Of a stretch of 41,849 nt of DNA, positions 17,502 through 30,847 are shown one piece after another (within the stretch, counting starts at the first letter, position 1; each line of letters starts with the position of its first letter). The notes under the pieces were generated by a model. It was given only the letters and a program-made list of their open reading frames with translations. It was not told where the DNA came from and did no database searches. Source of the stretch: Caldifarciminota bacterium (lineage in GTDB: Bacteria > Hydrothermota > Hydrothermia > LBFQ01); assembly GCA_015490465.1 (NCBI GenBank), contig WFXS01000122.1, forward strand, positions 1 through 41,849, written 5' to 3'. The position numbers and the translations under genes are program-made.

Positions 17502-17798
17502 CTACAACCTGAGATTATCCGCCCATACCCCTACGAACGGTAGGGGTTCAACCGATCCCCTCATGGCCTGGACGATACCGAAGAGAGTCAGGTACAGGAG
17601 AAGGACCAGACCGAGGGGAGCGAGGACCGCCCAGCCCACAACGGGAACGAACCTCCACACGAAGAGCCACACCAACCAAAGGGAGGAGAGTACGAAACCC
17701 TGCCTTATGTGGAAGATTACGAAGTTGTCCTTGGGTAGAAAGAGGACGACGATAAAAAAGAAGGGCAGGTAGGATAGGGCGGCCAGAACCCTGCTCAA
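17502..17798 (-). CDS. DUF4870/Tic20-like small membrane protein
   Basis: LAALSYLPFFFIVVLFLPKDNFVIFHIRQGFVLSSLWLVW; TTG start overlapping gatC stop (TTGA). Confidence 0.65.
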   Translation of the reverse strand: MSRVLAALSYLPFFFIVVLFLPKDNFVIFHIRQGFVLSSLWLVWLFVWRFVPVVGWAVLAPLGLVLLLYLTLFGIVQAMRGSVEPLPFVGVWADNLRL

Positions 17799-18052
17799 GT
17801 CTTCCTGCCTATAGGGGATAGGAACCGTACGTATCGGCCTTCGGTGTCGGGAGCGAGGGCGTATATCTCCGGGAAGGTCTCCCCCGGCTCGTCCTCCCTC
17901 AGGCGCGTGTACCCTTCGTGAACGGAGAAGAGAGGTTCAACGTCCGGTACCTCACCGAGGGCGTTTATAAACACGAGGATCCTCTCAAAGTCTTTCTGCA
18001 GATCTTCGTCCGCCTCAAGGCGTGCCAGTTCCCCTACCTTCTTTACGTCCAA
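17795..18052 (-). CDS. gatC: Asp/Glu-tRNA amidotransferase subunit GatC
   Basis: DVKKVGELARLEADEDLQKDFERILVFINALGEVPDVEPLFSVHEGYTRLREDEPGE; start placed at TTG 18052 because the longer ORF runs through tRNA-Gln. Confidence 0.85.
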   Translation of the reverse strand: MDVKKVGELARLEADEDLQKDFERILVFINALGEVPDVEPLFSVHEGYTRLREDEPGETFPEIYALAPDTEGRYVRFLSPIGRKT

Positions 18053-18124
18053 CTGGGGCGGGAGGACTCGAACCTCCACTACCAGATCCAAAGTCTGGCG
18101 TGCTACCGATTACACCACGCCCCA
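18053..18124 (-). tRNA. tRNA-Gln (TTG anticodon), CCA not encoded
   Basis: TGGGGCG/CGCCCCA acceptor, D-stem GTGT/GCAC, anticodon arm CCAGA CTTTGGA TCTGG, T-arm GGAGG TTCGAGT CCTCC, discriminator G; TATAAT at 18139-18134. Confidence 0.96.
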
Positions 18125-18145
18125 AAGGTTAAAATTATATCCCCG

Positions 18146-19318
18146 TTATACGAACTCCGGTTCTATCTGAACCGCCTGCTTTAAGTAATCGTAGGCCTTC
18201 CTTATGAGGTAGCGGCTCCGCAGTTCGTCGTACTTACCCCTCTTCTTAGCCTCCTCAAGGAACTTTTCGGGGTCAGCCTTACCCTCGTCCTTGAGGTACT
18301 GGATTATCTCCTCGTCCGTTATGTCAAGCTCCTTCTCCTCTATGAGTTTGAGGATTATCAGGTCCCGCGCCACTATGAAGGCGGCGTTCTGAAGGGCGGC
18401 CTCCTCCACCTCCTCCGGAGGGACCTGCTGGGCTATCTGGGGCTTTATGTCCTTATAGACCTGATAAACGAGCGAAGGGGGAGGATCAAAGGGGGACAGA
18501 CGCAATATCTCCTGAATTATGGCGTTTTCCAGTTCAAATTCGGCAACCTTCTGGGCTTCCTCAACCAGCTGCTCCTTTATCTTCTCTCTCATCTCCTGAG
18601 GGGAGGTGTATCCGAGGAGTTCGGCGACCTCCTCGTCCGACGGGTACTGAACCTCAAACACCTTCTTTATGACGTAAACCTCCTCCTCACCCTCCTCCTC
18701 GCCGGGGAGAACGACCTCGTCCCCCACCTTCTTTCCGAGAATGGCGTTGTAGAGGTCCTCGTCCAGTTCGTCCGCCCTCACGTATATACGGGCGCGCTTC
18801 CTCTCCCCTTCCTTACCGTCCTTCCGCGTAAAGAACTCCGCCAGGACCACGTCCCCCTCTCTGACCTCCCTGTCAACCGACTGGAGGGTGGCGTTCTCCT
18901 CTTTGAACTCCTGTATCTTCTCCTCAACGTCGGCGTCCGTTATCTGTTTTATCCTCTTTTTGACCCTTATCTGGGATGGATCCGGAAGGACGATCTCCGG
19001 ATAGATCTCAAACTCAACCGTGAACTCGTAGACGTCCTCGCCCTCGCTCTGGGCTTTGACCCTCGGGGAGGATATGAGCCTCCATCCCCTCTCCTCTACG
19101 AGTTTCTTTATCTCCTCGTTCAGGGCGTCAATAACGGCCTCCTCCCGCACCTCCTTTGCGAACCTCTGCTTAACTACGGATACGGGAACCTTCCCGGGTC
19201 GGAATCCGGGCAACTTTACCTTACGGGCGAGCCTCCGGGCAGCCCTGTCAACGTACTCCTCTACGGTTTCCTTTGGTATGACTACCTTTTCCTCTTTCAG
19301 GGACTTCCTCTCATCCAT
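18146..19318 (-). CDS. tig: Trigger factor
   Basis: LARKVKLPGFRPGKVPVSVVKQRFAKEVREEAVIDALNEEI, C-terminal SurA-like chaperone region. Confidence 0.92.
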   Translation of the reverse strand: MDERKSLKEEKVVIPKETVEEYVDRAARRLARKVKLPGFRPGKVPVSVVKQRFAKEVREEAVIDALNEEIKKLVEERGWRLISSPRVKAQSEGEDVYEFTVEFEIYPEIVLPDPSQIRVKKRIKQITDADVEEKIQEFKEENATLQSVDREVREGDVVLAEFFTRKDGKEGERKRARIYVRADELDEDLYNAILGKKVGDEVVLPGEEEGEEEVYVIKKVFEVQYPSDEEVAELLGYTSPQEMREKIKEQLVEEAQKVAEFELENAIIQEILRLSPFDPPPSLVYQVYKDIKPQIAQQVPPEEVEEAALQNAAFIVARDLIILKLIEEKELDITDEEIIQYLKDEGKADPEKFLEEAKKRGKYDELRSRYLIRKAYDYLKQAVQIEPEFV

Positions 19319-30707: not shown

Positions 30708-30741
30708 GGAACCCACCGGCCTTATAATATACACCTCAGGC

Positions 30742-30815
30742 GCGCCCGTAGCTCAATAGGATAGAGCACCTGGCTACGGACCAGGAGGTTGGGGGTTCGA
30801 GTCCCTCCGGGCGCG
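30742..30815 (+). tRNA. tRNA-Arg (ACG anticodon), CCA not encoded
   Basis: GCGCCCG/CGGGCGC acceptor, anticodon arm CCTGG CTACGGA CCAGG, T-arm GGGGG TTCGAGT CCCTC, discriminator G; TATAAT at 30723-30728; T-run after. Confidence 0.97.
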
Positions 30816-30847
30816 TTTTTTCGGGTGGTTTAGAACACGTCAGCCCT

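Follow-up and report, generated by a model that had tools for sequence, protein, structure and literature searches.

tRNA-Gln(UUG) directly abuts gatC in a Caldifarciminota genome: one case of an order-wide architecture in which tRNA 3′ processing probably yields leaderless mRNAs

In bacteria, tRNAs can be found in operons with mRNAs, for example with tufB or secE, and the mRNA in such operons has a spacer with an SD sequence. In mitochondria, tRNAs are said to punctuate the transcript, as in the model of Ojala, Montoya and Attardi (cited in PMC4633059). In Nanoarchaeum equitans, RNase Z cleavage of tRNA-sRNA precursors, and of a tRNA half located upstream of valS, makes the 5′ end of the downstream RNA (PMC3491384). 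Moreover, many bacterial genes are leaderless, lacking an SD sequence and having an mRNA that begins at or shortly before the start codon (Zheng et al. 2011, PMC3160421; for mycobacteria, PMC4633059; for P. acnes, PMC3848588). None of the open-access papers searched describes tRNA punctuation at the scale of a bacterial genome, and we found nothing on point for a tRNA-Gln/gatC linkage, for tRNA-mRNA transcripts with RNase Z, or for leaderless genes of WOR-3. To our knowledge, there is no bacterial case of tRNA punctuation on such a scale.

Here, we describe a locus within a stretch of 41,849 nucleotides (the window; contig WFXS01000122.1 of assembly GCA_015490465.1, Caldifarciminota bacterium). 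We compared the genome of the window (G000) with the others of its genus (six genomes in all, G000-G005), with a member of another genus of the family (G006), with the next family of the same order (G009), and with two class-level outgroups (G012 and G018). The locus comprises the following features.

18134..18139, minus strand: −10 box TATAAT of the tRNA-Gln/gatC unit, read directly and kept in the six genus genomes
18053..18124, minus strand: tRNA-Gln(UUG) with U1-A72, discriminator G73 and no encoded CCA (ARAGORN and Rfam RF00005)
17795..18052, minus strand: gatC, 85 aa, with a UUG start directly after the tRNA discriminator (Pfam; start kept in seven genomes)
17502..17798, minus strand: predicted membrane protein of 98 aa (ORF list; conserved 3′ of gatC in the genus)

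The spacer between TATAAT and the tRNA, read directly on the minus strand, is TTTAACCTT (9 nt), and the minus strand from 18052 reads TTG GAC GTA AAG AAG, which is the start of gatC. The first-pass annotation, which had placed the box at 18139-18134, the tRNA 9 nt further on at 18124-18053 and the UUG at 18052, was correct to the base: the Rfam tRNA model (69.4 bits) has exactly these tRNA bounds, and the ARAGORN bounds (18052-18125) are one base too wide on either side. Its identification of the peptide read from this UUG as GatC also held, as the product passes the cut-off of Pfam PF02686 (38.9 bits; cut-off 23), while scoring below that of the stricter model TIGR00135 (36.3 bits; cut-off 47.1); this is the only GatC detected in the genome. 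In the window genome, tig lies immediately 5′ of tRNA-Gln on the same strand. We recognised no standard −35 box upstream of the TATAAT, and found neither an SD sequence nor a TANNNT box just upstream of the gatC start. The TTG start of the gene for the 98-aa membrane protein overlaps the gatC stop (TTGA), and this gene is probably on the same transcript as gatC; in the frame examined, it is intact in five of the six genus genomes, and its product has no Pfam or NCBIfam match. GatB was found over its cut-off in 12 of 12 genomes and GlnRS in 0 of 12. Thus, tRNA-Gln is presumably charged via the GatCAB route.

We looked for the adjacency of tRNA-Gln and gatC in related genomes, as the first-pass annotation had suggested, and found it in each of the six genus genomes as well as in G006, that is, in seven of the seven family members in which gatC was found, with a UUG start in every case. 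Since the junction recurs throughout the genus and in another genus, it is not a chance arrangement. The gap between tRNA and gatC is 0 nt in five genomes (four of the genus and G006) and 1 nt in two (G002 and G003), where one extra T stands between the tRNA and the TTG; the frame through the tRNA is lost in these two genomes, and TTG-GAC is retained. We found no tRNA-Gln next to gatC in the other relatives with a gatC neighbourhood examined. A TATAAT is present 9-13 nt 5′ of tRNA-Gln in all six genus genomes despite differing flanking genes: the upstream gene differs in relatives (e.g., G001, G003 and G004), and the gene 3′ of gatC encodes the 98-aa membrane protein in the genus and is folE-like in G006. 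Because these flanking genes change while the junction persists, the tRNA-gatC unit outlasts its neighbours. We also note that G004, whose DNA is 95-97% identical here, has an extra 1.3 kb between tig and tRNA-Gln (JALWYV010000042.1; L032:3575-4900), with a 19-bp promoter stretch repeated at either border; the window has this stretch once (18134-18152) and lacks the segment, as if the segment had been lost (or gained) through recombination between promoters.

Our survey covered tRNA genes from G000, G001 and G006 (one family), from G009, and from the two outgroups, whose tRNA sets are partial; we defined the gap as the distance between nucleotide 73 (with the tRNA 3′ end set at T54+19) and the first start codon that belongs to a long ORF. 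Gaps of 0-3 nt were found at 10 of 47 tRNAs in G000 (binomial P = 1e-5), 10 of 40 in G001 (P = 8e-5), 21 of 43 in G006 (P = 4e-20) and 14 of 42 in G009 (P = 1e-14), or 21-49% of the tRNAs, compared to 1.8-5.9% in the random-position control. The class-level outgroups had 0 of 32 and 1 of 35 such tRNAs, and their sole case appears to be an ORF running through the next tRNA. For short genes these counts are low estimates, since genes such as rpmG, which follows tRNA-Trp with a gap of 3 nt in G000, G001 and G006, fall below the ORF length limit. Chance may account for a few of the counted ORFs; the ORF 3′ of tRNA-Val(GAC) in G000, for instance, matches no Pfam model and overlaps with a terminator-like hairpin. 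As a group, the abutting ORFs are real genes: most of those tested do match a Pfam model (16 of 20 in G006 and 8 of 9 in G000), and in many of them the domain begins at residue 1-8 (residue 2 in semialdehyde dehydrogenase, 3 in PRPP synthetase, 5 in PdxT, and 6 in MurA and Rrf2; in G009, 2 in HMGL-like and NDK, and 1 in L31), which leaves no space for an alternative start. Several linkages are common to both genera of the family [Cys-Rrf2, Lys(UUU)-murA, Ser(CGA)-prs, Asp-Gfo/Idh, Lys(CUU)-OmpA-like, Leu(UAA)-DUF4321, Glu(UUC)-purB and Thr(GGU)-pdxT], and the abutting genes are functionally mixed, including murA, purB, prs, nuoH, Rrf2 and rpmB. The tRNA-Gln-gatC junction is one case of this order-wide architecture.

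A TAWAAT box is concentrated 6-10 nt 5′ of start codons in 94 of 735 longer ORFs in a G000 sample that still contains spurious frames, and in 71 of 289 in G006; in the four members of the order, the share of longer ORFs with the signature of a leaderless gene driven by its own promoter is about 9-25%. Thus, leaderless mRNAs appear to be common in the lineage. Where a −10 box was recognised for a tRNA, it is mostly 8-14 nt away from nucleotide 1 on the 5′ side. If transcription starts about 7 nt after a −10 box, the tRNA 5′ leaders would be a few nucleotides long, in agreement with the earlier suggestion that the tRNA may carry almost no leader. The abutting protein genes have neither kind of signal: an SD sequence was present at 0 of 41 junctions in the family and 1 of 14 in G009, and no −10-like box (TANNNT) was found within 20 nt of the start at any of 55 abutting junctions, gatC included, so that these starts rely on neither an SD sequence nor a promoter of their own. 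We considered a GGAGG in the T-stem as a hidden SD sequence for gatC, and rejected it because it lies about 20 nt from the UUG, which is too distant, and none occurs at the 41 junctions.

The choice of start codon depends on the gap. Within the family of the window, all 20 genes with a gap of 0-1 nt begin with UUG; the start is UUG (12) or AUG (2) with a gap of 2 nt; AUG (5) or UUG (2) with a gap of 3 nt; and mostly AUG with a gap of 7 nt or more. UUG initiates poorly on leaderless mRNA in M. smegmatis (PMC4633059) and makes up just 3% of leaderless starts in P. acnes (PMC3848588). Genes in the surveyed genomes that look leaderless from their own promoter start mostly with AUG, with a UUG share of about 10-17% in G000, G001 and G006; relative to these genes, UUG is enriched in the abutting genes of G000 (Fisher P = 5e-6), G001 (P = 1e-3) and G006 (P = 3e-10), with no significant difference in G009. 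Among family tRNAs, CCA is encoded in 0 of 130, N74 is C or T in 130 of 130, and N75 is T in 41 of 41 abutting and 81 of 89 other tRNAs. If the trailer must be YU(U), then UUG would be the sole possible start when a gene touches the tRNA, and in the abutting genes, judging from the letters, the UUG start would double as the tRNA trailer. Two linkages form a series: Glu(UUC)-purB has a gap of 7 nt and AUG in G000 and G001, and a gap of 0 nt and UUG in G006; Leu(UAA)-DUF4321 has a gap of 10 nt and AUG in G018, 3 nt and UUG in G009, and 1 nt and UUG in G000 and G006 (the G009 and G018 proteins are DUF4321-like, matching the model only below its cut-off). These series support gradual compaction.

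Some further observations concern the tRNA genes themselves. In several families of the class, tRNA-Leu(UAA) is linked with the gene for a DUF4321-like membrane protein (L187, L099, L244 and L270). Many G000 tRNAs with no abutting gene are followed directly by C/T and a run of T, e.g., CTTTTTTTAT (loci include L096, L104, L106 and window positions 30741-30816), as though the terminator hairpin were supplied by the tRNA itself; in such tRNAs, C74 alone of CCA is often encoded. Tandem tRNA-Pro(UGG)-like genes number two in G000 (L082/L107, C6) and three in G001 (L200, C46), and some of these, with low scores, are possibly decaying copies.

We consider it probable that tRNA 3′ processing yields a leaderless or nearly leaderless gatC mRNA, as part of a genome-wide tRNA punctuation in the order. 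The TATAAT just 5′ of the tRNA would drive tRNA-Gln(UUG) and gatC as one transcription unit, with a tRNA leader of only a few nucleotides; a cut after G73 would free tRNA-Gln, to which CCA would then be added; and the remaining mRNA, beginning at the gatC UUG, would be translated as a leaderless mRNA. Genome-wide, a cut after N73 would give a tRNA and a 5′-phosphate mRNA carrying 0-3 extra nucleotides, with a predicted trailer Y74-U75-U76 that overlaps or directly precedes the start codon. Cleavage should come before translation, because the 30S subunit would be unable to load at a start codon in contact with a folded tRNA. This explanation, of which we infer the co-transcription, the exact cleavage site, the enzyme and the leaderless initiation at UUG, is based on the sequence and its conservation, the frequency of the junctions, the codon and trailer statistics, and the leaderless signature of other genes. 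Of the first-pass reading, the placement of tRNA-Gln and gatC behind one promoter, and of the UUG start directly after the discriminator base, is supported. The claim of a leaderless gatC mRNA made by processing fits the biology of the lineage, since the linkage is kept in relatives and leaderless signs are widespread, and its cleavage step would have to proceed with no RNase Z over the cut-off in 12 genomes.

As to the nuclease of this scheme, no RNase Z exceeded the TIGR02651 cut-off in 12 genomes, while the same model passes in all 14 control genomes. Canonical RNase Z was not detected in G000-G005 or G007, although no surveyed tRNA encodes CCA, and G001, G002, G003 and G005 had no RNase Z match of any strength. 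Weak RNase Z-like matches of the MBL fold occur in some genomes and are missing from four of the six genus members; the only MBL candidate followed up in G000 (L108:14243-14953) aligns with half of the model, and most of the genus lacks it. In P. acnes, endonucleolytic cuts occur at tRNA 3′ ends, yet there is no obvious tRNase Z (PMC3848588). Initiation at a 5′-terminal UUG also counts against the scheme, given the poor performance of such starts in mycobacteria (PMC4633059) and the preference for AUG in the promoter-made leaderless genes of these genomes.

The lack of RNase Z could instead mean that the tRNA-gatC RNA is translated uncut, or that each transcript becomes either tRNA or mRNA, so that maturation and gatC translation compete; exonucleases may then trim the 3′ side and destroy the mRNA. 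Such a reading would accord with the complete absence of RNase Z matches in four genomes, and with the 18 of 47 G000 tRNAs in which a run of T directly follows the discriminator and which require trimming only. Nevertheless, we regard both variants as unlikely, since initiation on a folded tRNA-mRNA, with the acceptor stem touching the start codon and no SD sequence, is sterically improbable, and an either/or fate would be costly at a junction carried by many housekeeping genes (murA, purB, prs, rpmB). We give still less weight to transcription of gatC from a start site inside the tRNA gene or by read-through from tig, which we think very improbable: tig does lie just upstream on the same strand in the window genome, but relatives such as G001, G003 and G004 have a different gene there, and the 55 abutting genes lack a TANNNT box near the start. 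Finally, the ORF list holds a longer, mechanical gatC ORF that begins inside the tRNA at TTG 18091, and its frame is open in the window. The earlier reading that this ORF would require translation through the tRNA was right, and there is practically no chance that it is a real gatC with an N-terminal extension: the 1-nt shift in G002 and G003 alters the frame through the tRNA with TTG-GAC kept, which rules out a start inside the tRNA and marks the longer ORF as an artefact, and the GatC start in G009, of the next family, aligns with UUG 18052.

A different question is the purpose of the pairing, where plain genome compaction, with downstream genes reusing tRNA promoters and no regulatory meaning in the pairing of tRNA-Gln with gatC, seems to us rather likely. 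Such reuse would be possible because leaderless translation requires no 5′ UTR, and the mixed functions of the linked genes and the stepwise closing of the DUF4321 and purB gaps speak for it. Against it, the tRNA-Gln-gatC pair, like other pairs, was kept while both flanking genes changed. Compaction can hold together with the cleavage mechanism and counts solely against a special coupling. The coupling of tRNA-Gln maturation to GatC synthesis that had been proposed for this locus is weakened, as the same junction occurs at many unrelated genes, and a regulatory coupling specific to gatC is, in our judgement, unlikely. The pairing of substrate and enzyme is attractive and kept across the family, yet it requires no special explanation given so many unrelated tRNA-gene pairs. 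As to the cleavage mechanism in its furthest form, we see even chances that the punctuation is mitochondria-like and chromosome-wide, with the trailer being both mRNA 5′ end and UUG start, and with tRNA 3′ maturation licensing the translation of housekeeping genes, gatC included, possibly via a novel 3′ nuclease.

If confirmed, this architecture would be a free-living counterpart of mitochondrial tRNA punctuation, would show how, thanks to leaderless translation, genes can make use of the promoters of tRNAs, and would tie tRNA maturation to the expression of essential genes. It would also pose two puzzles: which nuclease cuts without canonical RNase Z, and how the ribosome initiates at a 5′-terminal UUG. 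Annotators should be warned, since gene finders can extend abutting ORFs into the tRNA.

Among the known systems, bacterial tRNA-tufB and tRNA-secE operons resemble these loci, where a tRNA and a protein gene probably also share a transcript, but here the gap is 0-3 nt, there is no SD sequence, and up to half of the tRNA genes are involved. The N. equitans precursors would share the RNA 5′ end made by cleavage at a tRNA, but occur as isolated cases in an archaeon, and the product is mainly a C/D box sRNA rather than an mRNA. The likeness to bacterial leaderless genes extends to the promoter box, as many genes of the window genome have a TATAAT-like sequence some 10 nt ahead of their start; at the tRNA-linked genes, however, the 5′ end would arise from tRNA processing rather than from a transcription start, and the start codon is UUG, not AUG or GUG. 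In mitochondria, as here, tRNA genes border protein genes directly, so that mRNA 5′ ends would be set by tRNA excision, the mRNAs would have no leader or almost none, and CCA is not encoded. In contrast to mitochondria, this is a bacterial chromosome, and each unit has its own promoter, with a TAWAAT 8-14 nt upstream of most tRNAs rather than a single genome-length polycistronic transcript; moreover, the start here is mostly a UUG that overlaps the trailer, and the 3′ nuclease is putative. Thus, because its units have their own promoters and excision is putative, the architecture of this order is not a member of mitochondrial tRNA punctuation as defined there, but works like it.
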